Shown: positions 17,723-42,439 of the stretch, one piece after another
How the letters are laid out: the number at the start of each line of letters is the position of its first letter
Numbering within the stretch: the stretch's first letter is position 1
Assembly (NCBI RefSeq): GCF_014635865.1
Contig: NZ_BMDQ01000002.1
Coordinates: 310,001 to 374,000 of the forward strand
Length of the DNA: 64,000 nt
Source of the DNA: Winogradskyella haliclonae
GTDB taxonomy: Bacteria; Bacteroidota; Bacteroidia; Flavobacteriales; Flavobacteriaceae
Reading direction: 5' to 3'
Notes under the pieces: generated by a model
What the model was told of the DNA's origin: nothing
The model's input: the letters and a program-made list of their open reading frames with translations, nothing else
Database searches by the model: none
Position numbers and translations under genes: made by a program

Positions 17723-18137
17723 ATATTTTTAACCTGTGATTAAAATAAAATTTATGCGCTATTGTTTTTTCTTAATTTATGAACTAATTCTAAAACCTTA
17801 TTCTAATAGTTAAATAGCTTAATTTTAAGATGTTGAGTCTTGTCTATTATTTTATCCTATTTACCAATACAGAAAGTAATTTATTATTATTAATAGTACT
17901 TTAAAGCCCAAAGAGACAAAATTGGTACATTAAAAATCAAAATAGATTAAAATATATAATAGTATTTATTCCTACTAGAACCTCATTCATAATTTTGAAA
18001 TATACCTAAATAACAACATCTTGATTTTGTTAATTAAAATCAATCTATTATATAGCCTAAATGGCTACTAGTTTTTATGTTGATATTCATATTTTCAAAA
18101 AATAATGATAGTTTTTTTTCATTTACCTAACTATATC
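17723..18137. other. Non-coding AT-rich stretch holding site A
   Basis: No open frame with protein character was found on either strand. The only structured element is the mnmE-tail relic at 17861-17883. The stretch leads directly into the CPBP pseudogene. Confidence 0.6.
17861..17883 (-). repeat. Site A: relic of the mnmE 3' end (att-like)
   Basis: Read on the minus strand it encodes ITFCIGK followed by TAG (ACT TTC TGT ATT GGT AAA TAG), the conserved last residues of MnmE, in the same orientation as the real mnmE at 42419-43810. It is the most diverged of three relics. It shares with the others an in-frame TAA just before the ITFCIGK codons. It is interpreted as an old attachment-site junction. 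Confidence 0.6.
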
Positions 18138-18442
18138 TTGGGTTTTAGGAGCAATTGGTGAAGAAATAAGTTTTAGCTGTTTTTTTAATGAATCGGATAG
18201 CAGCCTTATATAACAATACTAAAGCTGGCTGGATTTTGGCAATTATATTATCTAGTGCTCTTTTTTGCTGGAGACATACAGAGCAGGAGATTTCTGGCTG
18301 GTTTTAGAAGTTTTAAATGCCATAATTTAATAGTATTTGTTAGATTAATAAGAGCCTCTTCATTCCAATTATAGCACATGGTATTTCCAACACAATGGGA
18401 CTAGTTATGATTTACTTTGGCACTTATCTATGTGTCTATTAA
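18138..18442 (+). pseudogene. CPBP-family intramembrane protease, decayed remnant
   Basis: Three pieces in different frames rebuild a CPBP (Abi-like) glutamic protease. The first is VLGAIGEEISFSCFF with the EE motif, where the usual Arg after Phe is now Ser. The second is LMNRIAALYNNTKAGWILA followed by LSSALFCWRH in another frame, matching the first catalytic His helix. The last is FIPIIAHGISNTMGLVMIYF in a third frame with the second H-x-x-x-N motif. Frameshifts, a stop after the first His helix and missing middle sequence make it non-functional. An intact family member lies at 26777-27688. Confidence 0.75.
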
Positions 18443-18518
18443 TCAAGTACATTAGAATTAACATTAAATTATCTTACTAAACACCATTAAACTTGTTTAG
18501 ATTACAGCGAATTTAAAA

Positions 18519-19247
18519 TCATAGTTTAACCAATTCAATAATTAGTGGTTGATCAACAACTTCGACCTTTACTATTCGCTTAGGGAATTGTTTGCTTATA
18601 TAAATTATATTAGATACTACATTCTTAATTCCACTTCTGAAGGTTACTTTATGACAATCAAAAGTTCCTGCTGGTACAGTAACCACTTCATCCCCTGCGT
18701 ACATTAGTTTCATTTCATACGCTAAGGCTGAACTTAGAAAAAAAGTATTTATTTTTTCATCTAACTTTGTTGGGTCAGTTATAGTATGTATTAATCCAAA
18801 AATTTCTGGCCGTAAAATTACTCTAGAAGTATAAGTCGTATCTATCTTCTTTTCTGTCAAATTTCCATTATTAATTGAGAAATTCCCTTTCAAATCTAAA
18901 CTACTCTTACGTTGAATAGCTACATCTAATGAGAAATTACTTCCTTTCATTTTCATATCAACCATTTTTGAAACCAGATTTTTTTTGTCCATTTTCAACA
19001 CAAACTCTTCTTGAATTATGTTAAACAAAACTGATATGTCTTTCAAAATGATTTCTTTTTCATTTACCTCTGTTTCCCAAATCCAATACCCAACTATCTT
19101 ACCGTTTTTTGTCATGTTAAATGAGTCTTTTCTCATTTCTAAGAGCTTTAAATCAACTTCTTTATCTAACCATAACTTGGTTTGAGAAAAAATTAGGTTT
19201 GAAAAAAAAATCATTAAAAGAACTAAAGGGAATTTATTTTTAATCAT
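18519..19247 (-). CDS. Secreted protein, DUF3108/TapB-like
   Basis: The 242-residue protein has an N-terminal signal peptide (ends near IFSQ). The rest is rich in beta strands, and the late segment VTVPAGTFDCHKVTF is typical of TapB/DUF3108-like periplasmic proteins, where a conserved P-A-G-x-[FY]-x-[CA] strand occurs. Function in this group is unknown. It is the last gene of a minus-strand run that includes an NTF2-like protein 51 bp upstream and a serine hydrolase. The start is the only ATG preceding the signal peptide. Confidence 0.6.
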   Translation of the reverse strand: MIKNKFPLVLLMIFFSNLIFSQTKLWLDKEVDLKLLEMRKDSFNMTKNGKIVGYWIWETEVNEKEIILKDISVLFNIIQEEFVLKMDKKNLVSKMVDMKMKGSNFSLDVAIQRKSSLDLKGNFSINNGNLTEKKIDTTYTSRVILRPEIFGLIHTITDPTKLDEKINTFFLSSALAYEMKLMYAGDEVVTVPAGTFDCHKVTFRSGIKNVVSNIIYISKQFPKRIVKVEVVDQPLIIELVKL

Positions 19248-19298
19248 ACAGTTTTTAACTTTTTTATTAATTGATTTTTAAGATTCATTACTCTAATT

Positions 19299-19808
19299 TT
19301 ACATTTTGAGGTATGCTTCAGGTATATCTGGATAAGATGTAGTATCACTAAAGATAGTAGAATAAATAAGCCACCCTTTTTTAGGATCTTTAATCAACTG
19401 AAAAGTGTTTACTCCTCTAATGGTTTGTTGTTTATCTCCAGCTTTTATAGTAAATTCATATGGACTAAAACGAACTGCAACTCCACCATAAACATGTGTA
19501 ATGTGACTCAACTCTTTTTCAACAAATGATTTTACATTATACTTCTTGAAGTTCTCTTTATTCTTATTGGTGAAATCTGCTTCTTTGAACATCTTTATTT
19601 GAGTCGTATCTACAGCTCCCACTATTGCTTCATGATAATGAATTGCCTTAAGTGTTTTATAATCAGGACTTTTAGTTTTAGTAAAAGAAATAGATTTATA
19701 AAGTTTCATTATTATCTCGTCAATATGTTTTCTATCCTCTTCTTGATTTTGAGAAAAACAAAAAGTTGTTAATACTAAAGCTATGAATAGTGTGCATTTA
19801 ATTTTCAT
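19299..19808 (-). CDS. Secreted NTF2-like protein
   Basis: The 169-residue protein has a signal peptide ending near CFSQ. The mature part has the NTF2/SnoaL-like pattern: a long first helix (IDEIIMKLYKSISF), a loop with YKTLKAIHYHEA, and end strands (AVRFSPYEFTI, GVNTFQLIKDPKKGWLI). It is clearly paralogous to the 39444-39974 protein (shared YGGVA-RFS-YEF and VFQLIKDP-KGWLI patterns), which lies in another segment of the accessory region. No catalytic assignment is possible. Confidence 0.72.
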   Translation of the reverse strand: MKIKCTLFIALVLTTFCFSQNQEEDRKHIDEIIMKLYKSISFTKTKSPDYKTLKAIHYHEAIVGAVDTTQIKMFKEADFTNKNKENFKKYNVKSFVEKELSHITHVYGGVAVRFSPYEFTIKAGDKQQTIRGVNTFQLIKDPKKGWLIYSTIFSDTTSYPDIPEAYLKM

Positions 19809-19835
19809 GATATATAGTTGTTGAATTTTATAATT

Positions 19836-21020
19836 TTAATTTAAAATGGAAGGCAAGATATCTCCCCAAAGCATTGATTCTGATTTTCTAGTTACAGCCT
19901 CATTACCTGCAGTTGTTACGATAACCATATCTAAATGTGGAATGACCCAAATGTATTGCCCTGCGTGTCCAATAGCATAGTAAATATCTTTTGTTCCTAA
20001 TGTATTATACACATAATGATTCTCTGAATATCTCCACCAATGGTAGCCATAGTTATTATTATCTGTAATTCTAATTTGGCTTGAAGTAGAAGTTTCAATC
20101 CAATCTTCAGAAATAATTTGAAGGTCATTCCAATGCCCATTATTTAGATATAGTTCTCCAAATTTTAGCATATCTATCGGTCTTAAAAATAGCTCTCCAG
20201 ATGTCCATGTAAGTCCATCGTCACCTCTAAGCCAATTCCATTCTTCAATTCCGACTTTAGAAAATAGATTATTTGCAGCATACTGCTCAGCAGATAAACC
20301 CGTTTTATTCTTTATAATTCCAGACAGCAGAATACTACAACCACTATTATAAGTAAAGTGTGTACCTGGATTATGCGATAATGGCAAATTGAGCATATAC
20401 TTTATCATATCATTACTCTCCCAAAGAATTGTAGCAGAATTATTTGGGTTGTCATATGGATATGTCCATTCATTCCATTCAAATCCAGAACTCATTGTTA
20501 AAATATTTTCTAATGTTATATTTTCCTTTTCATTGCTTAAATTTTCTATTTGTGAATACTCAGGAAAAAAATCTAATAGTTCTTCATCCAAGTCATTGAT
20601 ATCATTACTATCTATAGCAATACCTATGAGTGCAGATGTCACACTTTTGGTTATAGAGTATATACAATGCAATCTATCTCTATCATATCCTCGAAAGTAT
20701 TTCTCTAAAACAACTTCATTTTTTCTTGAAATAATTATACTATGAACATCTCCAAAATAACCATTATCAATTTTTGAAACTAAGCTTTGTAACTTAATTG
20801 TATCAAAGTTTTGTTTATGAGCTTCTAAGTACTTATTGTTGCTAGATAAACGGCCATTATAATCGACATCGACCGAATGATTATCAATTATCGCACAACA
20901 AATAAATAAGATAGATACAGTGCAAATTGATATACCCTTAATCACTCTAACTTTTAAATTAAACTTCATTAAATATGCATTTTTTATTTGCTCTAAAAAC
21001 ATATTGCTTTTATGCTTCAT
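19836..21020 (-). CDS. Beta-lactamase-fold serine hydrolase, probable lipoprotein
   Basis: The reading frame has 394 residues. Motifs are YSITKS (Ser122, Lys125), YNSGCS for the Tyr box and GHAGQY for the third box, plus TMSSGFEWNEW. Two starts are possible. The first ATG (21020) overlaps the preceding stop as ATGA, which favours coupling. The in-frame ATG at 20969 starts a cleaner lipoprotein signal (KFNLKVRVIKGISICTVSIL, then FICC). The protein is extracytoplasmic either way. It is the serine hydrolase member of the site A-site B segment. Confidence 0.82.
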   Translation of the reverse strand: MKHKSNMFLEQIKNAYLMKFNLKVRVIKGISICTVSILFICCAIIDNHSVDVDYNGRLSSNNKYLEAHKQNFDTIKLQSLVSKIDNGYFGDVHSIIISRKNEVVLEKYFRGYDRDRLHCIYSITKSVTSALIGIAIDSNDINDLDEELLDFFPEYSQIENLSNEKENITLENILTMSSGFEWNEWTYPYDNPNNSATILWESNDMIKYMLNLPLSHNPGTHFTYNSGCSILLSGIIKNKTGLSAEQYAANNLFSKVGIEEWNWLRGDDGLTWTSGELFLRPIDMLKFGELYLNNGHWNDLQIISEDWIETSTSSQIRITDNNNYGYHWWRYSENHYVYNTLGTKDIYYAIGHAGQYIWVIPHLDMVIVTTAGNEAVTRKSESMLWGDILPSILN

Positions 21021-21481
21021 GAATGGTCTGTTATTATAAGATATTTATTATTATATCTCTTCATTATAACAGAAAACCAATTAGAAAACGGTTCTTTTGA
21101 ATCTTTAAAAGTCAAATTAAATTTACCAGTCACAAAGAATAAGTCTTCGGCTAATTTTCTATAATGATAATTTTCAAATGATAATTTCCCCATATCTCTC
21201 TTAGGGAAAGATTTTTTAAATTGTCTTAAAATGTTTTCATATCCAAATGTGACTCCATTCTTAGATATCATTTGTACGGTATCTTTTGTTGAATATGCTT
21301 TCATATAACACTCAATATCCTCATTGTTCCAACAAATCACAATATCGTTAAAGGTATTCATTATCATCTCCTTATCTTTATCCAAAGACTTATTGATTTC
21401 TAATACCGTATAGAAGTCTTTATTTTGATTACAAGCAGAAATAAAAATTGCAATCAAAATGCTTATCATATAATTTTTCAT
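21017..21481 (-). CDS. NTF2-like (DUF4440/SnoaL-type) lipoprotein
   Basis: The 154-residue protein has a lipobox (FISAC) followed by a compact NTF2-like domain: NTFNDIVICWNNEDIECYMK, a central TFGYENILRQFKKSFP and the final strands LFFVTGKFNLTF and WFSVIMKRYNNKYLI. DUF4440/SnoaL proteins include small enzymes and pure binding proteins. Its stop overlaps the serine hydrolase start by four bases, so the two are translated together and probably act together at the cell surface. Confidence 0.72.
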   Translation of the reverse strand: MKNYMISILIAIFISACNQNKDFYTVLEINKSLDKDKEMIMNTFNDIVICWNNEDIECYMKAYSTKDTVQMISKNGVTFGYENILRQFKKSFPKRDMGKLSFENYHYRKLAEDLFFVTGKFNLTFKDSKEPFSNWFSVIMKRYNNKYLIITDHS

Positions 21482-21615
21482 TTATTTTTCTCTTGCAAAG
21501 AGTAAATAACCTGTAGACAAACTTTCAATAATTTTAATACAAGCTGTAAAATTTAAAAGTCTTAAGACAAATATTAAACAATATCTAGCAAACAAAATTT
21601 CTTATTGAATATTTA

Positions 21616-21999
21616 TTAAATGTTCATCATTTTTTCAATTACTTCTCTCCATTCTGGCGTATCAAAAAACAATCTGGATTTTATAATTTTATTTCCTCTA
21701 ATAGTAAAAACTTCTGCTGTTCTTGTATTCTCTACAGTAGGTATGTCTGTAGTAAAATTATATAGTGCTAAAACGTCATCCCTTTCTTCAATGAGTTGCT
21801 CAATCTCTATACTTTTAATAATCATAATGAACTTCTCAAAAGACAACATAAAATTGTCAGCTCCAAAATGCTCTTCTATTGGTCCTTTAAAGTGAAAATC
21901 GTCATCAAGTAAAGATCTACATCCTGAAAAATCATGATTTATTTGTGCATTTAGGTAAGCTTTAACCAGCTTTTTATTTCCTGTATTTTCAGTACTCAT
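21616..21999 (-). CDS. Cytoplasmic SnoaL/NTF2-like protein
   Basis: This 127-residue protein without signal peptide shows the SnoaL-like order: first helix KKLVKAYLNAQINHDFSGCR, LLDDDFHFKGPIEEHFG, then strands DVLALYNFTTDI, AEVFTIRGNKIIKSRLFF. Members may be isomerases, hydrolases or ligand binders, and nothing here fixes the chemistry. It lies 134 bp upstream of the DUF4440 lipoprotein on the same strand, and 67 bp after the DUF2911 gene. Confidence 0.72.
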   Translation of the reverse strand: MSTENTGNKKLVKAYLNAQINHDFSGCRSLLDDDFHFKGPIEEHFGADNFMLSFEKFIMIIKSIEIEQLIEERDDVLALYNFTTDIPTVENTRTAEVFTIRGNKIIKSRLFFDTPEWREVIEKMMNI

Positions 22000-22066
22000 T
22001 GTTTAATTATTTCTCTAACTATTTTATTCTTTTTATTAATCAGTTTAATTTTTATTAAAACTTCAA

Positions 22067-23173
22067 TTAATTAGGGATTTTATAAATACCAGCTTTCATC
22101 TCCTTCACAACTGTATTAAAACGATTATGATAATGCTGAGGTGCCTTTGAGATAACTTCCTCAATAATACTAATAGCCTCTTCAGTGTTTCCAAGGAAAT
22201 ATCTAGCCAATCCTTCATTAATAGCTAAAAACCATGTGTCTGAAAACTTCTTTCTTGCCTTTATAGCAAAGTCTAATGCTGATTCGTATTCTTTGAAATT
22301 AAGTAGCTCTCTACCAAATTGAAATGCTTCTCCAGGAGAAGAATAAATGGATTCAATATCATTTACCACTGCTTTAAAATCTTTATCCTTTTTTAATCTT
22401 TTTAAAAGCCTAGCTTTAGTATTTAAATTTGAAAAATTCTTATTAGCAGCAAAACCACCATAACCACCATTAATAGACCTTTCTGCCCATTGTAATGCCT
22501 CTTCTATATTAGTGTTGTGATTTAAGCACCATGTGGCTGCGTCATTCCATGCTTGCCAATGATATGTATTTATTCCTCTCAACTCACTTCTAAAACTTTC
22601 AACAACTGTTTTGTTGATGTCTACTTTTACTTCGAAGGGAATCCTCCTATCTGCCCATTCCAAGCCTATGGTGACTGAGTTTGCTTTCCAATCAAAAAAC
22701 TCATAATCTAATTTCTCTGAGAACGGACTCTCTTCGGAATTCACATCAATGCTTAAAGTTATATCCTTATCAATATCCAAATAATAACTACCCCATAAGT
22801 TATTATTATGAGCAAAAAGTAAAGTATAGACATTATTACTTTTTGGTATAATATGAAAACCATACTTACCTTTTTTCAATGCCATGCCTTCAATGATTAC
22901 ATCAGTTGAAAACTCAATAGTTGTATTCATATTAGCACCTGCTCTCCATGGTATAGGCTCTCCTTCTTGAGGTATAACATTTGTGTCGTTCCAAACATCT
23001 CTGTTATTTACTGTAGGGCTACAATACGAAATTATAATGTCTGTTACTCCAAGCCGTTGTTGTTCTTTTACTTCATTGCTTAACTGTGGAATTTTTAAGG
23101 TATGAAATTGTGCATTTCCTATTTTAAAAAATAACAACAGTATTAAGATGCATAAGATTTTGATTTTGCTCAT
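22067..23173 (-). CDS. Secreted DUF2911 protein with C-terminal TPR-like repeats
   Basis: The 368-residue protein has a signal peptide (ends near GNAQ). Residues about 35-175 match DUF2911: ISYCSPTVNNRDVWND, PWRAGAN, KKGKYGFHIIPKS and NNLWGSYYLDIDKD. The second half is helical, with repeat-like units (ATWCLNHNTNIEEALQWAER, ALDFAIKARKKFSDTWFLAI) of TPR character. The DUF2911 function is unknown. A copy of the recurring TCCTGATTT motif lies 69 bp upstream of the start. It heads a minus-strand run toward the NTF2-like and serine hydrolase genes. Confidence 0.85.
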   Translation of the reverse strand: MSKIKILCILILLLFFKIGNAQFHTLKIPQLSNEVKEQQRLGVTDIIISYCSPTVNNRDVWNDTNVIPQEGEPIPWRAGANMNTTIEFSTDVIIEGMALKKGKYGFHIIPKSNNVYTLLFAHNNNLWGSYYLDIDKDITLSIDVNSEESPFSEKLDYEFFDWKANSVTIGLEWADRRIPFEVKVDINKTVVESFRSELRGINTYHWQAWNDAATWCLNHNTNIEEALQWAERSINGGYGGFAANKNFSNLNTKARLLKRLKKDKDFKAVVNDIESIYSSPGEAFQFGRELLNFKEYESALDFAIKARKKFSDTWFLAINEGLARYFLGNTEEAISIIEEVISKAPQHYHNRFNTVVKEMKAGIYKIPN

Positions 23174-23495
23174 AATTTAAGTAGTGATTTTATTTTCGCT
23201 AAAAGTAAAGCTCATTAAATAGTCAAGTATCTTTATTTCGAAAATCAGGATATGAAAACTTTGTTTTTAGTATATCATTAACTTAATTCACTATTAAAAC
23301 TTTCTTCATCATAACCGTTAGCAACATAATACAAGTTTGCTTATGTTTATTCAATATTAGATAGTCATTAGTATTACAGAAGATTCTAAATAAAAATATG
23401 CTTATATAATGTTTGTTTGGGAATTCATAGATTACAGAATATTAGAACTCTATAATTACAATCGATTCAATTACTTAAACTGGTAATTAGATTAA
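23174..23495. other. Intergenic stretch upstream of the DUF2911 gene
   Basis: This is 322 bp without a convincing gene on either strand. Apart from the motif at 23242-23252 nothing structured was seen. Confidence 0.5.
23242..23252 (-). promoter_or_regulatory. Recurring TCCTGATTT motif, upstream of the DUF2911 gene
   Basis: On the coding (minus) strand the bases read TATCCTGATTT, 69 bp before the start codon. The same words occur upstream of genes at 25629, 32450 and 36501 in the same orientation to the gene. Confidence 0.45.
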
Positions 23496-24521
23496 CTAAG
23501 CAGATGTTAAATTACTTTTCACTTGAAAATGTTTATCTTGATAATCTCTAGGACTCATTCCTGTTTCCTTCTTAAATGCAACATAAAATGCAGAAGGTGA
23601 ATTAAAGCCAACCTCATAAGCAAGAGCTTCAACCTTAATTTCTTTGCGATTCCTATTGTTTAGCAACATAGTTTTTACATCTTCAATTCTAAAATGATTT
23701 ACTACTTCTGGAAACCTTTTACCATAAAGCTGCTTTACTGATTGTGTAACTAAATATATTGGTATTTTACTGTCAATTGAAAATTTAGTTAGTGTTATAG
23801 ATTTTTCCATATATAACTTTTCTTCTTCAAAGGCTTTTTTAACTTTTTTCAATATACTTAAAGGCACTAAGTCAGTATTTTTTTTAAAGATTATCGGGGA
23901 TTTTAGTGCTGCAAAAAAAATATAATAAATGGACAATGATGCTAATCCAGTCCATAGTGCGTATTGTAAAATAAAAGGTGTTATATGTTGTATCAAAAAG
24001 GAAAACCAAATTACACTTATTACCAATAGTAAACGACTATTCCAAAGTTTGATATTTGTCTCATGATATGTATTTCTAATATGTATAAATAGCGAGGCTA
24101 ATAAATAAGCTAAGAAGATAAAAGTTGCTGTTTTATAAAGCATTACCACATACTTAAAGTCAACAAATAAACATGTAATAGTACCAATTACAGGGATAAT
24201 GAAATGCATCCATGTTTTAAAATAAAACTCTATTTTCTTATTTACCATTCTACACATATATACATATAACAATGGTCCAGCACAACTAAGACCTAAAAAC
24301 CCAAAGGAAAGACCTAAAGAAAAAACATCAATAAAAATAAAATGGATAATAGACTTAATAATTCTTAACCCTATAGCTATAAACAACAATCCTAATAAAG
24401 TATTCTCATATTTATCTCTCTTTTTAATAAGAATTAGATAGACAGCTATAAAAAAGTTCGTAGTAACGGCGATGCCTGAAAAAATTCCCAAAAGGACAAT
24501 ATTTCTATCTATGTCATACAT
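23496..24521 (-). CDS. 7TM-AraC family regulator
   Basis: The 341-residue protein has about seven hydrophobic helices up to residue 212, then an AraC double helix-turn-helix (ALAYEVGFNSPSAFYVAFKK, MSPRDYQ). The same design occurs at 12359-13483 and 35485-36501, and the DNA-binding end resembles that of the 35485 gene (EVGFNS-SAFYVAFKK versus DVGFNSTSSFYAAFKK). Probably a membrane-anchored sensor-regulator for the adjacent secreted-protein genes. The start is the first ATG, directly before the first helix. Confidence 0.85.
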   Translation of the reverse strand: MYDIDRNIVLLGIFSGIAVTTNFFIAVYLILIKKRDKYENTLLGLLFIAIGLRIIKSIIHFIFIDVFSLGLSFGFLGLSCAGPLLYVYMCRMVNKKIEFYFKTWMHFIIPVIGTITCLFVDFKYVVMLYKTATFIFLAYLLASLFIHIRNTYHETNIKLWNSRLLLVISVIWFSFLIQHITPFILQYALWTGLASLSIYYIFFAALKSPIIFKKNTDLVPLSILKKVKKAFEEEKLYMEKSITLTKFSIDSKIPIYLVTQSVKQLYGKRFPEVVNHFRIEDVKTMLLNNRNRKEIKVEALAYEVGFNSPSAFYVAFKKETGMSPRDYQDKHFQVKSNLTSA

Positions 24522-24708
24522 AATTAAATTTACTATAATTTTGACTTTAAATAAAAAACTGTAGCTATGACTACACTTAATTAATTTACCTCTTTAATTC
24601 TTATTAAATCAACTCTAATTACAAAACCCTCTAAACATTTATATACTATATATTAAATTTTATAATTCTTAATGATTCTATTTAATCATTTAAATAACAG
24701 AAAATAAA

Positions 24709-25629
24709 CTATTCTGATTTGAAATTATTAATATATTCTCTCAACTTCTCTATTGTAGGGGCATTCAGTCTTCTTCGTTCTAAAGTTGAAACAGCAGTAG
24801 TATCTATAAGCTTAGGGTCTAACATAATTTTATGATTCATCGTTACAGATATTCCTTGTGTACCATACCACTGTGGCTTATCTTGGCTTAACAAAAGCCT
24901 ATCTTTAGTTGCTGCACATAACCAAGGTGCCATTTCATGAGTTGAATCAAACTTCAATGACTTCTGGGCTAGTTTATGTGCTATTTTATAATCTTCTGTT
25001 TTTGAACCATGATGCATTATCATGGCTGCTTTGTAATAATCATATCCAGATTTTAGTTTATCATTTTCTATAAATTTCATAACTTTAAATCGACGAATTG
25101 AATCTTGTACAATCACTTTCAAATTATTGTATTGGCCGTTTAGACGTACTTGCTGATCTTCGCTATACAATTTTGCTAATTCTTTGTTATGCTCTTTATA
25201 GTAAAGAACTAATAAAGGGCTTATAAGCTTTGTCCACTCATCAGAATCTTTAATAAAGGAAAGCTTTTCATCAAACTCTAATTTACTCATGTCTGACCAT
25301 CCATTATTTATAGACTCTTTCAAATATTTTACAGCTTTATCCTTAATCTTGAACATAGAAAAATAGCAAGCTATCTCATAATAAGCTAAGCTTATCTCTT
25401 TATCTTCAAACTCTCCTTTATCTATGGCTTTAATCAATAGATTTGCTGCCTCTTTATATTGTTCTTTATACTTAGCAATCTTTGATTTAAACCTATATTT
25501 TGTAGTGTCACCGCTAATTTGAAACATTGTAAAGTTTTGTCCACTTCCTTTTTTAATAGTAACAGTGTGTTGAGAATAAATATTATTGTTATACAAACAC
25601 ATAATAGCCATAACCATTATAATTTTCAT
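24709..25629 (-). CDS. Secreted TPR-like protein with DUF6624-like end
   Basis: The 306-residue protein has a signal peptide ending near IYSQ. Residues 60-150 form TPR-like helices (LAYYEIACYFSMFKIKDKAV and a final WTKLISPLLV of TPR end-of-group type). The C-terminal half contains YYKAAMIMHHG and TKDRLLLSQDKPQWYGTQ, which resembles the D-R-x-L-x-x-x-G-x-x-Q-x-Y-G-T-Q signature I associate with DUF6624. No function is known. The TCCTGATTT motif is 94 bp upstream. Confidence 0.6.
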   Translation of the reverse strand: MKIIMVMAIMCLYNNNIYSQHTVTIKKGSGQNFTMFQISGDTTKYRFKSKIAKYKEQYKEAANLLIKAIDKGEFEDKEISLAYYEIACYFSMFKIKDKAVKYLKESINNGWSDMSKLEFDEKLSFIKDSDEWTKLISPLLVLYYKEHNKELAKLYSEDQQVRLNGQYNNLKVIVQDSIRRFKVMKFIENDKLKSGYDYYKAAMIMHHGSKTEDYKIAHKLAQKSLKFDSTHEMAPWLCAATKDRLLLSQDKPQWYGTQGISVTMNHKIMLDPKLIDTTAVSTLERRRLNAPTIEKLREYINNFKSE

Positions 25630-25977
25630 GATATTTTGATTTTTATATATAATCCCTGGGGAAATTTAGAATAAATATAGAATGATTCATTTAGCGAAAA
25701 AGTTAGTTAACTATTGATTTGACAAATCAGGACGTTAATTTTTGTTAACATCGATGAACTACAAAAGTTTGAGCTAAACATTTAATAACATTATCACTTT
25801 AAATGTTTATGAAAAATTATCGAAAGAGCATCTTTCAGTATTAATCTACTGTATATATAAATCTTTAATGATACTGTTATGTTTGAAAAAGTAATGAAAT
25901 ACATTAAAAAACTACGTTCTTAAACGTAAATTTATGTGATTACTTTTTAAGTAGTTTATATCAGCGTGGTTTAATGA
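25630..25977. other. Non-coding stretch left of site B
   Basis: This is 348 bp without a convincing reading frame. It contains the palindrome and motif at 25715-25733 and otherwise only AT-rich sequence leading into site B. Confidence 0.5.
25715..25733 (-). promoter_or_regulatory. Palindrome with recurring TCCTGATTTG motif
   Basis: The plus strand reads TGATTTGACAAATCAGGAC. The inner TGATTTG-A-CAAATCA is a perfect 7-bp inverted repeat, and on the minus strand GTCCTGATTTG matches the motif found upstream of three other genes. It is 94 bp before the 24709-25629 gene start. Confidence 0.45.
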
Positions 25978-26015: not shown

Positions 26016-26108
26016 ATTAGCTTGATATTTTATGAGGTTCAAATTCAGTACAATATATATTGTGATTATAGTTTGTTATTTAATGTCTAAAAGTTTTAAC
26101 AATCGCAG

Positions 26109-33555: not shown

Positions 33556-33556
33556 G

Positions 33557-34444: not shown

Positions 34445-34480
34445 AATTTGTGTCAACTAACGATTAATTATAATACTAAA

Positions 34481-35026: not shown

Positions 35027-35031
35027 AACTA

Positions 35032-35413
35032 ATGATTATGAAAATTCTTTTATGCGTATGAGCAACTATAAAAAACTACTGGCGCAATAATATGTTTAAC
35101 ATATTAATTGGGTTTTGTCTCAAAAGCTAATTCGCAAAGTAGATTCCCTTCTCAATTAGCTACAGATTTGCAATTTGAATTAGATAATTGGGCTAAAGAC
35201 TCAAATCACATAGGTGTAAGTGCTTCAGTTATTCTAAAAGATGGATTTCAATGGATAGGTACCTCAGGTATTTCTGCATTAGACAAAGATTTAAATGAAG
35301 ATGAATTAATATGTATAGCTAGTATTACTAAATATTTAGAATTGAATTTGAAATTTTATAGTTCTCCAAGCTTAACTGGTTTCTTTTTCTACAATAAATT
35401 TAGCTTGATGTAG
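35032..35413 (+). pseudogene. Serine hydrolase (beta-lactamase fold), truncated
   Basis: The frame at 35108-35413 encodes the N-terminal part of a beta-lactamase-fold hydrolase (ASVILKDGFQWIGTSGIS, then ELICIASITK with the S-x-x-K box) but breaks into unrelated residues right after it. The Tyr and third boxes are absent. The signal peptide start at 35032-35060 (MIMKILLCV) is cut by a TGA and is out of frame. It lies just left of site C, so the break could be an insertion or deletion boundary. Confidence 0.8.
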
Positions 35414-35450
35414 TTTGTATTAATTACTTCCCGATACAGAAAGTGATTTA
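35412..35450 (-). repeat. Site C: relic of the mnmE 3' end (att-like)
   Basis: On the minus strand it reads ATC ACT TTC TGT ATC GGG AAG TAA, i.e. ITFCIGK and stop, the exact end of MnmE. The 17 bases TGTATCGGGAAGTAATT are identical to those at the real mnmE end (site D), while sequence outside diverges. Orientation is the same as mnmE. It is 34 bp from the 3' end of the intact 7TM-AraC gene. Confidence 0.75.
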
Positions 35451-35484
35451 TCATTATGCTGTTAAACTTTTAAAACTATACTCA

Positions 35485-36501
35485 TTACAACATATCATGA
35501 AGCATCTTTCTCTGAAACTCTCTTGGTGTAATTTTTACTATCTTTTTAAAAGCTGCGTAAAAAGAAGAGGTTGAATTAAATCCAACATCAAAAGCAAGTT
35601 CTTCCACTTTTACATTTGCCAAATTGGGATCTTTAAGCTTATTTGTAATGTCTTTTATTCTCATGGAATTAATAACTTCAGGGAATGATTTACTGTATCT
35701 ATCTCTAATGACAATAGAGATTACATACTTAGGAATATTAATTTTATTTGAAAATTTGGTCAAATTAATACCTTGAGTTCTGTATAATTTATCTAATTCC
35801 AAAGCAGTAATTATTTGAATCATTTGCTCTGGTTTAGGCGAGATTTTGTTTAATGCTTTTAACATGTTAGGTGGATTTTTAAGCATATAAAAAAACAACC
35901 CACTAATCACAACAGATGATATAGCTGTCCCTATTATATGCATCTGAATCGTTGTCATGAAGTACTGAACAAGAAATACTAAAAACAATAATGACATTGT
36001 AATAAAAATTGTTTTATCCCAAAATAGATAAGAGACTTCTGTTTTGTTTTTCTTATCGAGAAAAGTAAAAAAGCAATACGAAAGATATAATAGAAAACTT
36101 AAGTTACAAACAAAATATAATTCATTGTCTAAATTGCTCGTTGAAAAAATCGTTGTAACTCCAATGATGGATAATAGAAAATGAAGCAATTGAATCTTAG
36201 AAAAATCAAATATTGTTCTTACTGAATTAGATTTAAAGTACCAATATGTCAGAGGCCCAATTAACGAAAACCCCAAAAAGCCTATTGCTACTATAATTCT
36301 AGGCATAAAACCATGTTTCATTGTAATAAAATAGAAAATTATAGATTTTATTATACATAAAAATATAGCGATTATTAAAGCAGAAAGTATAGATTTTTTT
36401 AAACTTCTCTCTTTGATTCCAAATAATAGATACATTACAATGAAAATACACATTACAACGACAATTCCAGAAAATACAGTAAGTAAAAAGTAAATACCCA
36501 T
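35485..36501 (-). CDS. 7TM-AraC family regulator
   Basis: The protein has about 338 residues from the ATG at 36501; a GTG two codons earlier is less likely. Seven hydrophobic helices occupy roughly residues 5-210, and an AraC DNA-binding domain ends the protein (FDVGFNSTSSFYAAFKK, ITPREFQ). Its last 70 codons and flank are duplicated at 26435-26677. It is divergent from a serine hydrolase gene at 36825. A palindromic TCCTGATT / AATCAGGA element lies 70-90 bp upstream of its start and may be its own operator. Confidence 0.87.
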   Translation of the reverse strand: MGIYFLLTVFSGIVVVMCIFIVMYLLFGIKERSLKKSILSALIIAIFLCIIKSIIFYFITMKHGFMPRIIVAIGFLGFSLIGPLTYWYFKSNSVRTIFDFSKIQLLHFLLSIIGVTTIFSTSNLDNELYFVCNLSFLLYLSYCFFTFLDKKNKTEVSYLFWDKTIFITMSLLFLVFLVQYFMTTIQMHIIGTAISSVVISGLFFYMLKNPPNMLKALNKISPKPEQMIQIITALELDKLYRTQGINLTKFSNKINIPKYVISIVIRDRYSKSFPEVINSMRIKDITNKLKDPNLANVKVEELAFDVGFNSTSSFYAAFKKIVKITPREFQRKMLHDML

Positions 36502-36824
36502 AACCACAAAATACTAGAAAATTGATTTTTAATACATTAACTTTATTGTTAAATCTGTCACAAATATATATCCTGATTTGATGAATCAGGATTTTTAATA
36601 AAATACTCTATACAATTTATAAACACAAAGAATTTTATTCTGATATAAAAATTTCAAAAGAATGGAGATTTTTATCACTCGTTTTCATACTATAAATTAA
36701 GAAAGAATAAAACCACTGTCAATTTGTTAAAAATTTTATAATTCTTATTCCTGTTTATAAAAATCAGGAAATCACATGGTAAAGTTCCGTCTATTTTTAA
36801 CATCAAAATTTCAATTATAAAATT
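36502..36824. other. Divergent intergenic region of AraC and serine hydrolase genes
   Basis: This 323-bp region contains two motif-like elements (36571-36591 and 36751-36769) and no reading frame of note. The second element reads TTCCTG near 36751 and AATCAGGA near 36762 before the serine hydrolase start, a looser version of the first palindrome. Confidence 0.5.
36571..36591. promoter_or_regulatory. Palindrome TCCTGATT-N5-AATCAGGA
   Basis: A perfect 8-bp inverted repeat with a 5-bp spacer (TGATG), followed by TTTTT. It contains the recurring word TCCTGATTTG, upstream of the 7TM-AraC gene. It may be an operator; the following T run also makes a weak terminator possible, though no plus-strand gene ends here. 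Confidence 0.5.
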
Positions 36825-38333
36825 ATGACAAAATCGCTTACAAATAATTTAAAATGCTTTATTATACTATTTTTATTTACAACTTCTCTTTTACATGCTC
36901 AACAAGATAAAGTAGAGCAAATAGACAAATTTATTAATCAGTTAAAAAAACAATACCAATCCATCCCAGGTTTGGCTGTTGCTATAGTTAAAGACAATAA
37001 TACTATATTAACCAAGGGGTACGGTTATGCTGATTTAAATAAAAATATAAAAGCAGACAAAAACACAGCTTTTTATATTGCTTCTACAACTAAATCTTTT
37101 ATTGGTGCATTAGCAACTATTCTAGAACATAAAGGACAATTAAATTTATCAGCACCCCTAAGCAGTTACAAACCGTTTAAAGAACTATCAAATAGAGATA
37201 TTTTTGATAACATTACCATTTTAGAATTATTAAACCATACGAGTGGATTGACAAATAATTTTCTCACATTCAGATATTCATATTTAGGAAACTTATCAAA
37301 AAAAGATATCATAATGCTTATAGAAAAAACTACTCAAGCTAAAGATAAGCGATTTAAATATTCTAATCTTGGTTATAATTTGTTTAGTGTATTACTAAAA
37401 GAAGAATTTGATAAAAACTGGCAAGATTTATTAAATGAAAAGTTGTTTACACCTTTGAAAATGTCTCATACTTCAGGCTATATGTCTGATGCTTTTAAGA
37501 ATAAATGGATATTAGCACAACCTTATGTAGGGGGGTATAAGGATGGTCTGAAAAAGTTTCCTCTAAAAACAGACAATACAATGCATGCAGCTGGAGGACT
37601 AATTTCTTCTGCAAGTGATGCTGCTAAATGGTTGCTTTACAACATTAATACAGGAAAGTTAGATAACACTCAAATTACAGCTTCTACGGCAATAAAAAAA
37701 TCTCATATACCCACTATTAATTATTCAAAAAAGAAAGGACAAATATTTCAAGGACTGAGTTATTCTATAGGTTGGCACAATGCTACGTTTAACGATAATA
37801 ATGATGTTATTTATCATTTTGGTGGTTATAACGGTTTTCAATCTCATATATCATTTATGCCAAAAGAAAAGATTGGTATAGCTGTTTTTACGAATGAAGA
37901 ACATTTTGGAGATAATTTAAGTAGTATCATCGCTTCTTATATTTATGAAGTATTACTAGAAGAACCTATTAATGAAAACACTTATAATCAAAAGTTAAAA
38001 GATCTAACTGAACTTGAGAGAAAGTTAATAGAAAACTCTGGAAAAAAGAAGTTAAATGAGACGGCTACTGAATGGAATTTAACAATGCCTTTAAAAGCTT
38101 ATACGGGTATTTATAAAAATGATTTTATGGGAAGTATGGATATTACAATAAAAAATAAAACTTTATATGTAGAATTTGGAGAACTACAGGCTGCAGCTGT
38201 AGCTTCACCAGAAGTCAATGCATGCAAAGTTGAGCTTATTACTAACCGAACTATGAATTTAAAGTTCATTATAAATAATAATACCATAACTGGAATAGAT
38301 AGTGGCGGACTAACTTTTAAAAAAGTAGAATAA
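36825..38333 (+). CDS. Secreted beta-lactamase-fold serine hydrolase with C-terminal DUF3471-like domain
   Basis: The 502-residue protein has a signal peptide ending near LHAQ. Catalytic boxes are STTK (Ser87, Lys90), YSNLGYN and HFGGYNGF. A small beta domain of DUF3471 type follows about residue 420 (LKAYTGIYKNDFMGSMDITI). It is the same family as 13549-14919 and 19836-21020 but not a recent copy. Divergent from the 7TM-AraC regulator and followed 13 bp later by an alpha/beta-hydrolase gene, so a two-hydrolase operon is likely. Confidence 0.88.
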   Translation: MTKSLTNNLKCFIILFLFTTSLLHAQQDKVEQIDKFINQLKKQYQSIPGLAVAIVKDNNTILTKGYGYADLNKNIKADKNTAFYIASTTKSFIGALATILEHKGQLNLSAPLSSYKPFKELSNRDIFDNITILELLNHTSGLTNNFLTFRYSYLGNLSKKDIIMLIEKTTQAKDKRFKYSNLGYNLFSVLLKEEFDKNWQDLLNEKLFTPLKMSHTSGYMSDAFKNKWILAQPYVGGYKDGLKKFPLKTDNTMHAAGGLISSASDAAKWLLYNINTGKLDNTQITASTAIKKSHIPTINYSKKKGQIFQGLSYSIGWHNATFNDNNDVIYHFGGYNGFQSHISFMPKEKIGIAVFTNEEHFGDNLSSIIASYIYEVLLEEPINENTYNQKLKDLTELERKLIENSGKKKLNETATEWNLTMPLKAYTGIYKNDFMGSMDITIKNKTLYVEFGELQAAAVASPEVNACKVELITNRTMNLKFIINNNTITGIDSGGLTFKKVE

Positions 38334-38346
38334 GGCCAGCCAAAAT

Positions 38347-39318
38347 ATGAAAAACTTAAAATATAGTCTAGGTTTAATAGAAAAGTGTGTTTCAACTATA
38401 TTAAAACGAGGAGTTGGGAAAAAGAAAACTGTAACTTGGAACTTAAAAACTGAACTTATTTGGGCTACTACTAGATTCACACTTTTATCCTCAAACATAC
38501 ATGGTTTAGAGTGGTTAAAAAGATTATCCAATCGTTTTAATCCAAAATCTTCATTAGTTAATGAACTTATAATCGAGGAAATAAATAATAATGTTGGTAA
38601 ATATCTTAAAGTAGAACCGAAAGATAAAAAGTATAGCAAAAACATCATTATTTACTTTCATGGTGGTGGCTTTGTTACAGGCTCTCCTTATGCTATTATT
38701 GAATTTATTTCAAGGTTAGCCATGTCTTCAAATTCAAAAATCATAATACCCTTTTACCCAACTGCTCCTGAGAAATTTTATCCGTCTGCTCATAAATTTG
38801 CTATAGAGATAAGTGAGTTCATTTTAAAAGAGATAGAAACTCCAATATATCTTACAGGCGATTCAGCTGGAGCAAATTTAGCGATAACTACATTTAAAAA
38901 ATTAACAATAAATAACAGACAAAAGATTCGTGGTTGTATTCTTATCTCTCCTTGGGTAGAACCAACATCAACGAAAGGCACGATTCAAAGTAATTCTAAA
39001 AATGACGTAGCAAATTCTCAATACTTAAAGAATTGTTATGACATGTATATAAACAATAATAACGAACTAGATGAATACCCTCTTACTCTAAACAAAAGTC
39101 AGTTGATTAAACTACCTAAAACCATAATAACTGTTGGAACTTTTGAAATGTTATTAGATCAAGTCAAAAAATTAGACGATAATTTAAAATCTTTAAAAAC
39201 AGAAACCACACTTATTGAATACGACAACATGTTTCATACATTTTGGAATGTTCCAGCAAAAATTAGAGAAGCTGATAAATTAATTGATGATATTGCAAGT
39301 TGGCTGGATTCAAATTAA
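38347..39318 (+). CDS. Alpha/beta-hydrolase fold-3 (HSL-like) esterase
   Basis: The 323-residue protein has no signal peptide. The hormone-sensitive-lipase-like pattern is clear: IYFHGGGFVTGSP (HGGG oxyanion hole, near residue 103), LTGDSAGANLA with nucleophile Ser, and MFHTFWN with the catalytic His near the end. Such enzymes hydrolyse short acyl esters in the cytoplasm. It follows the serine hydrolase gene by 13 bp on the same strand. The N-terminal region (GVGKKKTVTWNLKTELIWAT) is unremarkable. Confidence 0.85.
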   Translation: MKNLKYSLGLIEKCVSTILKRGVGKKKTVTWNLKTELIWATTRFTLLSSNIHGLEWLKRLSNRFNPKSSLVNELIIEEINNNVGKYLKVEPKDKKYSKNIIIYFHGGGFVTGSPYAIIEFISRLAMSSNSKIIIPFYPTAPEKFYPSAHKFAIEISEFILKEIETPIYLTGDSAGANLAITTFKKLTINNRQKIRGCILISPWVEPTSTKGTIQSNSKNDVANSQYLKNCYDMYINNNNELDEYPLTLNKSQLIKLPKTIITVGTFEMLLDQVKKLDDNLKSLKTETTLIEYDNMFHTFWNVPAKIREADKLIDDIASWLDSN

Positions 39319-39443
39319 ACCGCAACCCTTGTTAAACTAATCAAAATATTTTGTCCCGATTTAATAAACCAGAGTATTAATAAGCTATACATTTTATATT
39401 TTTTGGCCATGAAAATTTTTAATTAGCATTTAAACCAAAACAT

Positions 39444-39974
39444 ATGCATAAAATTTCAATAAAACTTTTTGCTCTTATTTTCACAGCTTTTTTATCAGCT
39501 AATATAATTGCCCAGCAAGAGCAAGATGATTATAAGCAAATAGACCAAGTAATTTCTAAACTATATACATCTATCTCATTTATAAATGGCAAAGAACAAG
39601 ATTATATAACACTTAAAAAAATTCATCATGAGAAGGCTATGATAGGTTCAATATCTACAAAACAAGCTAGAATATTTCCCGTGAAAGAATTTCGTTCAAA
39701 AAATAAAGAGACTTTTAAAAAAAATAATATTCTGTCCTTTCAAGAAAAAGAAATAGATTACAAAACACTAGTATACGGTGGCGTTGCAACTCGATTTAGC
39801 ACGTATGAGTTTGAAATTAAAACTAAAGACCGAGAGTTAAAAGTAATAGGAGTTAACGTATTTCAGTTAATAAAAGATCCAGAAAAAGGTTGGTTAATAC
39901 TGTCAAATGTATTTAGTGATAATATGTCTTATCCAAATCCAAAAACACACATAAAGATTATCAGAAAAGAATAA
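39444..39974 (+). CDS. Secreted NTF2-like protein
   Basis: The 176-residue protein has a signal peptide (ends near IIAQ) and an NTF2-like domain: IDQVISKLYTSISFINGKEQ, LKKIHHEKAMIGSIST, VYGGVATRFSTYEFEI and VNVFQLIKDPEKGWLILS. It is a clear paralogue of the 19299-19808 protein in the site A-site B segment, about half identical by eye. It is followed 7 bp later by a TlpA-like lipoprotein gene. Function unknown. Confidence 0.75.
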   Translation: MHKISIKLFALIFTAFLSANIIAQQEQDDYKQIDQVISKLYTSISFINGKEQDYITLKKIHHEKAMIGSISTKQARIFPVKEFRSKNKETFKKNNILSFQEKEIDYKTLVYGGVATRFSTYEFEIKTKDRELKVIGVNVFQLIKDPEKGWLILSNVFSDNMSYPNPKTHIKIIRKE

Positions 39975-39981
39975 CTGCAAT

Positions 39982-41124
39982 ATGAAAAAAACAATCCTTT
40001 ACATAGTATTAATAAACGTTCTTCTTTCGTGCAAAAAAGAAATAACAACACCTTTAGCAGTAGTAAATTCAAATTTAGCAACTAGCTCATCTAATGTTGG
40101 TTGGGATAAAATTACGTCACAATCGTGTTTGTATAATTTAAAGACTAGTATAAATGGGAAGATTATAAATAATGAAAAAAAGGAGATAAGCCAGCAATTC
40201 CCTAACCTTCAAAAAATTGTTTCTTATAAAGACAATGTTATGACCAATATAACTTTAACAAATGATGAAGGAAGTAGCATAATTAAGTATGAAGAAAATA
40301 CCTTAATAGGCTTAAATAAAATTCCTTATGAAAAGCCTAAGATTAATCCTGTTATAGAACTTAAAGAAAAAATAGAAGATTATTATTTAATAGATACATT
40401 ATGGAACAACACTGATGTTTTTTATTTGGATAGCAAAAAAAATAATGACACTTATATATTTAATAAAGAAACAAAATTGCTTATTGCCTACCTATCCGAA
40501 ACCGGATATGGATTATCTACACTAACTTTTGAAGACTATAGAGAAGTAAATGGCTATTTATTACCATTTAAGAAAAAAAACTTTGTTCCAAAATCGGCAT
40601 ATATACAAGAGTATACTTTTCAAGAGAGAAAACTAAATGTAATATTTCCTGATAATCAATTTGAATTAAATAAAGACTTGACATATTTGAAAAAAGGTTC
40701 ACTAATTCCAGATTTTACATTACCAACCGTTTCTGATGATAATAAAGTTTTTTCCAACAATGATTTGGAGGGAAAAGTAACATTAATTGATTTTTGGGCT
40801 ACTTGGTGCAAACCTTGTATAAAAGAATTTCCAGTTATAGAAAAATATTATAATACTTATAAAAACAAAGGCTTTAACGTAATTAGTATTTCTCTTGACA
40901 CAGATATTGAAAGATTAAAATCATTCTCTAGAAAAAAAATATTTCCCTGGACTACAAGCCTTTACTCTGCTGATGGATTGAAAGGAGATATAGCTAAAAA
41001 ATTTCAGTTAGCTTCTTTACCTAAACTAATATTAGTTAATAAAGAAGGAAGAATAATTGCTATGGATAAAGAATTAAGGCATGACAAATTAGGAAAGGTT
41101 TTAAGTGAAATACTAGATAATTAA
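39982..41124 (+). CDS. TlpA-family thioredoxin-like lipoprotein
   Basis: The 380-residue lipoprotein (lipobox LLSC) has an N-terminal beta-rich region (about 20-220) and a C-terminal TlpA/ResA-type thioredoxin domain starting at PDFTLPTVSDD, with the active site WCKPC in IDFWATWCKPCIKEFP and the cis-Pro segment LASLPKLILV. The N-terminal part resembles an outer-membrane-lipoprotein-like sorting domain rather than DUF4369. It should act as a reductase or disulfide enzyme outside the cytoplasm. It is followed by an S41 peptidase gene 23 bp downstream. Confidence 0.85.
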   Translation: MKKTILYIVLINVLLSCKKEITTPLAVVNSNLATSSSNVGWDKITSQSCLYNLKTSINGKIINNEKKEISQQFPNLQKIVSYKDNVMTNITLTNDEGSSIIKYEENTLIGLNKIPYEKPKINPVIELKEKIEDYYLIDTLWNNTDVFYLDSKKNNDTYIFNKETKLLIAYLSETGYGLSTLTFEDYREVNGYLLPFKKKNFVPKSAYIQEYTFQERKLNVIFPDNQFELNKDLTYLKKGSLIPDFTLPTVSDDNKVFSNNDLEGKVTLIDFWATWCKPCIKEFPVIEKYYNTYKNKGFNVISISLDTDIERLKSFSRKKIFPWTTSLYSADGLKGDIAKKFQLASLPKLILVNKEGRIIAMDKELRHDKLGKVLSEILDN

Positions 41125-41147
41125 AACTTGTTAAAAAATATAACTCA

Positions 41148-42362
41148 ATGCGTTTATCCATACTAATCTCGATACTTTTAATTACAAATATAATTTATGG
41201 TCAGCTTTCCTTTGTTGACGATATTAATATTCCAGTAGAAAATTACAATCAAAATTTTAAACAAATAAATGCTATAGTAGCTAAAAATTATAGTCATTTA
41301 AAAAATAAGAATATTGATATCGACTCTTTATATAGTTTCTATCAAAACAAAATATCTGAAATCGCAAATAAAGAAGATTATTTTAAATGTTTACTAACGT
41401 ATTTTTCAAAACTTAAAAACTCACATACAACTATTCATCTTAGAGATTACGGTATAAAAGCTTCTGTTAAGATGATTGAAAATAGACTTTTTTTGCATAA
41501 AGTAGACGATGCAGATTTTGTTAAATTGGGAGTTAAAAAAAATGATGAAATTCTGCAAATAGATAACAGACCAATAATAGAATGGCTAAACATTCAACGA
41601 AAATTTGTAAGTGCCTCTACCCTTGATGGCGAATTAAATAATACGTTATGGAAAGTATTTAATAGTGAGTTTAAAATATCTAGAACATATACTATTAAAA
41701 CCACTAATGGATTAAAAACAATTGCAAAAAAGCTAAATATACCAACTGAATACAGTTATTCATTTCCTAACAATATAACCAAAAGTAATGGTAGAAAACT
41801 CAACGAAACTACAGGCTATATTACTATAAATTCAATGACTGGTAATGTAGTAAAAGAATTTGAGGCTTCTTTTAATTCATTAATGCATTTACCTAATTTG
41901 ATAATTGACTTAAGAGAAAACACTGGTGGGAATTCAATTTTCAGTGAACAAATAGCTAGATATTTAATATCTTATCCAACAAGAGCTTGTGTCTCTAGAA
42001 AAAAAATAAAACCTAAGAAAAATAGATATAAGGGAAAGTTATATGTGCTAATAGGTGTTAAAACAGCATCTGCTGGTGAAAGTTTTGCTATTGATTTGTT
42101 AGAAAGTGGAAATGTAAAACTAATAGGTAGTCCTACTGCAGGAGACACAGGTAACAATCCTAAAAATTTTACAACTGATTATGGAATTTCCTTTAGAATC
42201 CCAATACGCAAACCTCCTCAAATTTCTTTTAATGGTTTTCCTATGGAAGGAACTGGTTTACCACCGCATTTTGAAATTAATCAAACAGTAGAAGATTTTA
42301 AAAGTGACACAGATACGGTTTTGGAGTATACTTTAAACTATATTGCGAAAATTAAAGGATAA
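41148..42362 (+). CDS. Secreted S41-family peptidase
   Basis: The 404-residue protein has a signal peptide (ends near IIYG). The tail-specific protease core shows LIIDLRENTGGNSIFSEQ and GVKTASAGESFAIDLLESG with the nucleophile Ser of the T-A-S-A-G-E-S type, and IGSPTAGDTGN. A PDZ-like region (VKKNDEILQIDNRPIIEW) precedes it. Such peptidases cut C-terminal regions of periplasmic proteins or peptides. It is the last gene before the mnmE end and site D, hence at the right border of the accessory region. Confidence 0.87.
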   Translation: MRLSILISILLITNIIYGQLSFVDDINIPVENYNQNFKQINAIVAKNYSHLKNKNIDIDSLYSFYQNKISEIANKEDYFKCLLTYFSKLKNSHTTIHLRDYGIKASVKMIENRLFLHKVDDADFVKLGVKKNDEILQIDNRPIIEWLNIQRKFVSASTLDGELNNTLWKVFNSEFKISRTYTIKTTNGLKTIAKKLNIPTEYSYSFPNNITKSNGRKLNETTGYITINSMTGNVVKEFEASFNSLMHLPNLIIDLRENTGGNSIFSEQIARYLISYPTRACVSRKKIKPKKNRYKGKLYVLIGVKTASAGESFAIDLLESGNVKLIGSPTAGDTGNNPKNFTTDYGISFRIPIRKPPQISFNGFPMEGTGLPPHFEINQTVEDFKSDTDTVLEYTLNYIAKIKG

Positions 42363-42416
42363 ATTACACATCTTTATTCTCCTGCCTATATTGTTTACTA
42401 CTTGTTTGTTAATTGG

Positions 42417-42439
42417 AATTACTTCCCGATACAAAAGTT
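42417..42439 (-). repeat. Site D: present mnmE 3' end, proposed active attachment site
   Basis: The codons TTT TGT ATC GGG AAG TAA end mnmE and the shared 17-base word TGTATCGGGAAGTAATT continues 2 bp past the stop, where it matches site C. Left of the TGT codon the sequence differs from sites A-C (AAC TTT versus ACT TTC), as expected when crossover occurs in this word. It is the reference site for the relics at 17.86, 25.98 and 35.41 kb. Confidence 0.65.

Follow-up and report, generated by a model that had tools for sequence, protein, structure and literature searches.

Tandem genomic islands located behind a single-copy gene and bordered by copies of its 3′ end are known from the ssrA islands of Dehalococcoides (PMC3146451). 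Fifteen of these islands have no integration module, and the accessible part of the paper suggests that they are possibly cis-mobilizable elements (CIMEs). According to the available excerpts of PMC5704250, CIMEs are integrase-free units bounded by attachment (att) sites, which are stacked by site-specific recombination during the accretion of integrative and conjugative elements (ICEs) and integrative and mobilizable elements (IMEs). In Salmonella genomic island 1 (SGI1), a tyrosine integrase uses the last 18 bp of thdF/trmE, which is mnmE, and tandem arrays are formed, as described in the accessible parts of PMC2297512 and PMC5704250. In this work a stretch of 64,000 nucleotides from Winogradskyella haliclonae (contig NZ_BMDQ01000002.1, positions 310,001 to 374,000), referred to below as the window, was analyzed. 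Between dnaN and mnmE it contains modules separated by copies of the mnmE 3′ end. We propose, with a probability of roughly 0.82, that integrative-element modules have accumulated by accretion at the 3′ end of mnmE and form an array that spans about 11.8 to 42.4 kb.

Results

The preliminary description of the window had reported three sites (A, B and C) resembling the end of mnmE (D), in the orientation of this gene. Their positions, spacings and shared letters were confirmed in the sequence, as were the 17-base identity between C and D and the loss of one base in B (Table 1). The start-to-start distances of the successive sites A, B, C and D are 8,132, 9,435 and 6,995 bases, and cores A, B and C all lie on the mnmE strand. 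A 19-mer consensus, taken in part from the tested sites, matched A, C and D alone in the window at up to four mismatches and gave no match in 10 Markov windows. Core B was missed because its deletion shifts the register; it was matched at five mismatches only, a level also reached by one other site in the window and by 26 in the 10 Markov windows. In the whole 3.05-Mb genome, ACTTTCTGYATYGGNAARTA was found with up to two mismatches at A, at C and at one site with two mismatches, B being absent because of its lost base. Another core pattern, with up to three mismatches, was found at six places, three of which are A, C and D. The word is thus rare genome-wide. Relatives with the same gene order and no repeats at the boundaries, which would have spoken against insertion, were not encountered.

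We interpret A, B and C as att cores with element arms and not as coding relics of mnmE, as which they had been presented earlier. The in-frame TAA reported as common to the relics is indeed present in all three. As a coding feature it is rejected, since it belongs to the element arms and the cores of other genomes mostly lack it. The reported increase of decay toward the left, and the age order derived from it, did not hold up either. No such gradient exists: core A is intact, its P arm is better preserved than those of B and C, and core forms ending GGTAAATAG are also found at the mnmE end of a relative and at array cores.

Tyrosine integrases suitable for such sites are encoded immediately behind mnmE in many Bacteroidota. 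In 14 of 34 same-genus relatives, mnmE is followed directly by a gene for a member of one integrase family (phmmer search), some with PF00589 matches. This set comprises 36 relatives without G014, whose contig ends in mnmE, and G022, in which mnmE was not found; G017 is counted with only 97 bp downstream of mnmE. A species-wide contig scan gave 23 loci related to the integrase of G009, with mnmE just upstream in 20. The remaining three are those of F. psychrolimnae and F. petrolei, which lie at a P-core-P′ junction, and one partial match with neither feature. Among 397 genomes drawn evenly from the larger family, 76 had a match at 1e-60, and mnmE was just upstream in all 30 of the best loci fetched. 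The mnmE integrases consist of the domains Arm-DNA-bind_5, Phage_int_SAM_5 and Phage_integrase (PF00589), and they are usually accompanied by a matching core 18–41 kb away. As in SGI1, integration at the 3′ end of trmE/mnmE is apparent here: the cores equal the mnmE end, and the integrases of the relatives follow it directly. The preliminary description had also called for relatives in which this word borders a different number of modules and for an integrase next to it; both were found.

Two integrase lineages were distinguished. Lineage I comprises nine genomes with about 94% or more identity to the G020 integrase and two with 74–75%. Its distal core, beginning TATTGTAT, is present in 10 of the 11 genomes; the eleventh, G001, is covered over 22.9 kb only. 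The motif TGTTGC occurs in 10/10 P and 10/10 P′ arms examined. The integrases of lineage II (G009 and G024) share 58–60% identity with that of G020, and the core contains ACTTTCTG. Arm sites resembling TGTACC/TTTGTACC are present in 13/13 P arms and 5/6 P′ arms of integrase-bearing elements, and TGTTGC in none. The arm codes are not fully exclusive, as a lineage-II-like motif was also found in 4/10 lineage-I P arms. The G031 integrase (47% to G020) was not assigned to a lineage. The same genome carries, on its own contig and away from mnmE, a second fragment of the MnmE C-terminus (G031:C101:2454-2615; 54 residues, 57% identity). In G019 a 30.8-kb insert without an mnmE integrase was observed when the first 30 kb after mnmE were inspected; judged from their translations, its proteins resemble those of a contractile injection apparatus.

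The empty site was identified in G023, the closest relative compared (MnmE 95%), where only about 0.1 kb separates the DUF4870 gene from the mnmE stop. The genome with dnaN–DUF4870 directly beside mnmE that had been asked for is thus available. The DNA on its two sides matches window positions 11716-11834 and 42418-42484, and therefore about 30.6 kb is inserted in the window, including the part left of A. The insertion starts at about 11.8 kb. Within the covered sequence downstream of mnmE, a DUF4870 homolog was found in 13 of the 34 same-genus relatives, at 0.1, 0.4 and 1.3 kb in three of them and at 10.9–57.7 kb in ten.

The distribution of cores was assessed in the mnmE-downstream DNA of 40 genomes (the 34 same-genus relatives, the window genome G000, G039, G306, G455, G456 and G457), 1,658,665 bases in total. 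With up to two mismatches, all 25 cores found lie on the mnmE strand; A and C are two of the 25, and the pattern was taken in part from the sites themselves. In 20 shuffled sets 11 chance matches occurred in total, every one with two mismatches. In G009, the mnmE core lies at local position 1,657 and further cores at 32,731, 48,331, 69,707, 76,721, 113,136, 122,103 and 148,659; another, at 13,735, is degenerate, and the P′ arm at 76721 is truncated. Three distal cores are present in W. alexanderae and two in Flavivirga rizhaonensis. On the array contigs of these three genomes, one PF00589 match lies at mnmE and the others lie outside the array. Therefore nine of nine further modules there and three of three in the window are without PF00589 (12/12, four genomes). 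With tblastn, the int, orf2, HTH (helix-turn-helix) and orf4 genes of G009 and G024 were detected in the mnmE-side elements of the covered arrays but in none of the further modules; the exceptions are distant integrase-like matches in G024/G456 and a 23-residue match in G035. In G039, a member of another family, two intact cores lie about 0.6 and 1.6 kb past mnmE, which indicates that short modules or empty stacks exist outside this family.

Recent movement of a complete element is indicated by G024 (Winogradskyella sp. KYW1333) and G456 (a Polaribacter metagenome-assembled genome), which have 28,938 bases in common at 99.85% identity. The identity begins 26 bp ahead of the mnmE-side core and ends at the distal core. 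The flanks are unlike, the 400 bp beyond the ends agreeing in just 117 and 99 positions without gaps. The sequences show recent transfer of one whole element, ending at its cores, between the genera. The translations of this element (G024:C7 ~60470-89410; G456:C1 1629084-1658022) include apparent genes for branched-chain amino-acid synthesis and copper or heavy-metal functions.

Arm sequence outside the core links A, B and C to one integrase lineage, lineage II. The P matrix was built from 13 lineage-II P arms of other genomes, with the core excluded. The P′ matrix was built from seven training sites, two of them with the same sequence and that of G019 shifted by one base relative to the register, and B and C were given four offsets. 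According to these matrices, module 1 has both arms, module 2 has a P′ arm and module 3 has neither. At C, a PF00144 gene is cut; the homology to G118 (see below) stops at 35332, and the lineage-II P′ stub follows at a distance of about 60 bp or less. This is most simply explained by a deletion at C in which the integrase end of a lineage-II element was lost along with some 4.7 kb of module 2. The P side of B is cut short about 50 bp away from the core, where it meets DNA with 87% identity to a second locus of the genome; an AraC fragment follows.

A cognate integrase was found neither in the window nor elsewhere in the genome. Neither recombinase nor transposase domains were detected by Pfam in 32 of the 37 open reading frames (ORFs) of at least 80 amino acids between 12344 and 42362; the scan did not include the five that overlap with larger ones. 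Genome searches with PF00589 and PF00239 gave no match within the window, which agrees with the earlier remark that no integrase, excisionase or transposase is visible. The integrase query P0001 had no match in G000 at 1e-60. As a resident source, the six PF00589 loci of the genome were rejected, five being only partial matches (26–36%) to the G020 integrase and the sixth none. Serine recombinases were likewise rejected, since the PF00239 matches of G000, G009, G455 and G457 all lie outside the arrays. Relaxase or conjugation domains were not seen among the Pfam matches of the scanned ORFs; ORFs without any Pfam match remain. The modules thus share with CIMEs the lack of integration genes (Pfam scan, PF00589 and PF00239 searches) and of transfer genes (within the Pfam-matched ORFs). 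They also have an att site at both ends in the form of cores A–D, with recognizable arms only on the P side at A and the P′ side at B and C.

A relative of module 2 was found in another genus by searching window positions 22450-42400 against the 397 family genomes. The segments 26780-32677 (84%), 33016-33558 (79%) and 34565-35332 (90%) are collinear in G118, and most other matches were short and weak. The mnmE array of G118 has cores at local positions 2,035 (mnmE itself), 7,893, 53,535 and 65,827, all on the mnmE strand; a core-like word with one mismatch at 57734 lies within a hydrolase gene and was set aside as chance. The module-2 blocks are located inside the 12.3-kb module 53,535-65,827, which extends from two S41 peptidases and a 379-amino-acid PF00144 protein to a CAAX protease. 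It has a core and P′ arm on the mnmE side and a core and P arm on the far side. No integrase was detected in it among the ORFs, by tblastn with P0001 or by Pfam on ten ORFs (the mnmE-side module included), PF00589 not having been run on G118; P0001 had no match in G118 at 1e-60. The mnmE genes of the two genomes share 72% DNA identity. Module 2 is thus closer than this core gene, which indicates transfer after the genera split.

A P′ arm of about 80 bp with a second half-core starts five integrase-free modules (two in G009, one in W. alexanderae, two in G118), and these arms are 74–96% alike in BLASTN pairs; a sixth site, in G016, is weakly similar. The same motif was found within integrase-bearing elements, namely those of G009, W. 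alexanderae and Flavivirga. A lineage-II arm site in the P′ arms of integrase-free modules was considered and rejected as weak, with 2/6 by motif count.

Regulators, small proteins, peptidases and hydrolases are encoded between dnaN and mnmE. An AraC-type gene and a PF00144 gene are present in all four inserted segments, as fragments in module 2, and one small-protein family is common to modules 1, 2 and 3 (genes at 19299, 27694, 28242 and 39444). Compared with the mnmE islands of relatives, the cargo gave distant matches, except in G025 (DUF2911 58.5%, AraC 38–39%, just beyond its distal core). Within segment 0, the adjacent paralogous genes at 15095-17005 encode proteins with 52% identity, and the 3′ end of the MarR-type gene carries a 79-bp tandem duplication (17549-17706). 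Outside the insertion, two tandem copies of about 59 bp with 98% identity were observed at 7087-7200.

Table 1. Features of the mnmE locus in the window.
Feature	Position	Strand	Remarks
dnaN and DUF4870 gene	10227-11808	+ and -	Conserved left flank of empty site; same order beside mnmE in G023, G026, G029
Segment 0	11835-17856		AraC regulator, PF00144 hydrolase, two paralogous genes (15095, 16091), MarR; inserted relative to G023
Core A	17857-17877	-	0 mismatches to family pattern
P arm of A, lineage II	17878-17965	-	Contains TGTACCAATTTTGTCTC; top of 127,824 window positions (P matrix); BLASTN to G009 and G024 arms
Module 1 (A-B)	17878-25988		8.1 kb; DUF3108, small protein, PF00144, SnoaL-like, DUF2911, AraC; no integrase
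P′ arm of module 1 at B, lineage II	25949-25988	-	Second-best of ~127,920 positions (P′ matrix)
Core B	25989-26010	-	One base missing
Scar	26062-26254		87% identical to G000:C1:1157492-1157682, another place in same genome
Scar, 3′ fragment of AraC gene	26436-26678	-	97.5% identical to 35458-35699
Body of module 2 (B-C)	26780-35332		Three blocks 79-90% identical to module in G118 mnmE array
Truncated gene	35108-35413	+	G118 homolog is a 379-amino-acid PF00144 protein
P′ arm stub at C, lineage II	35385-35423	-	Best window position (P′ matrix)
Core C	35424-35444	-	0 mismatches to family pattern; 17 bases same as D
Module 3 (C-D)	35445-42418		7.0 kb; AraC, PF00144, Abhydrolase_3, small protein, Redoxin, S41; no integrase, no recognizable arms
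mnmE	42419-43810	-	Last 18 bases are the target (D)

Discussion

The repeats between dnaN and mnmE are real and are mostly explained as a variant of accretion with CIMEs. We propose that Bacteroidota tyrosine integrases of the Arm-DNA-bind_5, SAM_5 and Phage_integrase architecture recombine an element core with the last ~18 bp of mnmE. Each insertion would restore the mnmE end and leave a copy of the core at the far end, and repeated insertion would pile up modules in a single orientation. The modules of the window would be cis-mobilizable remnants whose integrase is gone. Module 2 may have traveled as, or from, a unit like the G118 module, and C–D may still be excisable if a fitting integrase entered the cell. 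At the sequence level this is supported by the cores and arms, the empty site, the integrases and distal cores of relatives, the intergeneric transfer and the integrase-free stacks elsewhere. The preliminary description had stacked modules entering at mnmE and being moved in trans or by homologous uptake. Site-specific insertion, the stacking of several modules and the lack of a resident integrase of the right kind stand; the leftward age order and the view of the repeats as relics of the mnmE gene are not supported.

Several observations weigh against the proposed array. With the P matrix, B, C and D reached ordinary scores (fractions 0.11, 0.59 and 0.37), so that the P arms of B and C are not recognizable, and the P′ matrix gave no match at A and D (0.05 and 0.07). 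By a strict arm-motif count an arm site is present at A only. At the left border of segment 0 no core was recognized. Two Flavobacterium genomes with an integrase at mnmE have a second integrase-bearing element at a P-core-P′ junction; these second loci are 98% identical over 12.3 kb and lie on contigs other than that of mnmE. Integrase-free stacking is therefore not a rule.

It is very improbable that the site is a hotspot in which inserts were acquired through homologous recombination of conserved flanks, with the core words as bystanders. Many relatives do carry different inserts, some without an integrase near mnmE (G019, G034), yet the 25-to-0 strand bias, the excess of cores over the shuffled sets and the transferred 28.9-kb element that ends at its cores disfavor this explanation. 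The chances are about even that each module was once autonomous and lost its integrase end, without any movement in trans, leaving a fixed stack. The deletion scars at both ends of module 2 and the truncated P′ arms at B, at C and at G009 76721 fit such decay, and CIMEs are described as decayed elements in the excerpts of PMC5704250. Not easily reconciled with it are the conserved P′ arm at integrase-free modules and the further modules, in which no remnant of the four backbone genes was found. An origin of the modules from an ICE or IME agrees with the lineage P′ stubs at C and B, yet the G118 relative of module 2 is also without a visible integrase.

Movement of integrase-free modules in trans is plausible because such a module is common to two genera. 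More specifically, and only tentatively, the integrase-free modules may be non-autonomous elements with conserved att arms of their own, recruited by a neighboring resident arm-binding integrase at the same mnmE. Arrays of different modules, in units of 5–40 kb, might then be built across genera by an integron-like logic. This is favored by the shared module (79–90% DNA identity against 72% for mnmE), by the core and arm on each side of its G118 form and by the ~80-bp P′ arm in five integrase-free modules of three genomes, and weakly in G016. G009, W. alexanderae and Flavivirga each have one integrase at mnmE and together nine further modules without one, in which int, orf2, HTH and orf4 were not found. 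However, the P′ arm motif is also located inside three integrase-bearing elements and may represent a fossil junction, and a lineage-II arm site was recognizable by motif count in only two of the six P′ arms. The evidence for a G118 module free of integrase comes from its ORFs, from a P0001 tblastn and from the Pfam matches of ten ORFs, PF00589 not included, and an integrase end deleted as proposed at C would account for much without action in trans.

The best reading is accretion of cis-mobilizable, integrase-free modules, a known kind of process in an apparently undescribed Bacteroidota system. No paper on an mnmE-island system in Flavobacteriaceae or Bacteroidetes was among the literature matches listed, most subscription journals being outside their coverage. 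The mnmE gene is a frequent island-insertion site in Flavobacteriaceae. Since integrase lineages and site pieces can be named, islands of marine bacteria can be cut at their exact ends, even without an integrase. Whether cargo spreads in trans when it lacks an integrase of its own can be examined directly with the stacked integrase-free modules.

Integron cassette arrays have one integrase beside an anchor and integrase-free units behind it in a single orientation. A similar arrangement was seen in three relatives, with units of 5–40 kb and core-and-arm sites; the likeness is one of arrangement, no search for IntI or attC having been made. As far as the accessible part of the Dehalococcoides paper describes them, the ssrA islands resemble the mnmE arrays as tandem islands bounded by gene-end copies. 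They differ in having ssrA as target and a serine recombinase, whereas mnmE and tyrosine integrases with arm sites are used here. The window modules are, like the CIMEs of the excerpts seen, att-bounded, stacked and without an integrase. Unlike those, they occur in Bacteroidota at mnmE, have no identified transfer functions, are putatively mobilizable and possibly include integrase-free units with a P′ arm of their own. SGI1, according to the parts of the literature available, shares with the mnmE modules the target and the tandem arrays, a likeness of site and arrangement. SGI1 arrays are copies of one island, whereas the mnmE modules of W. haliclonae differ from each other.

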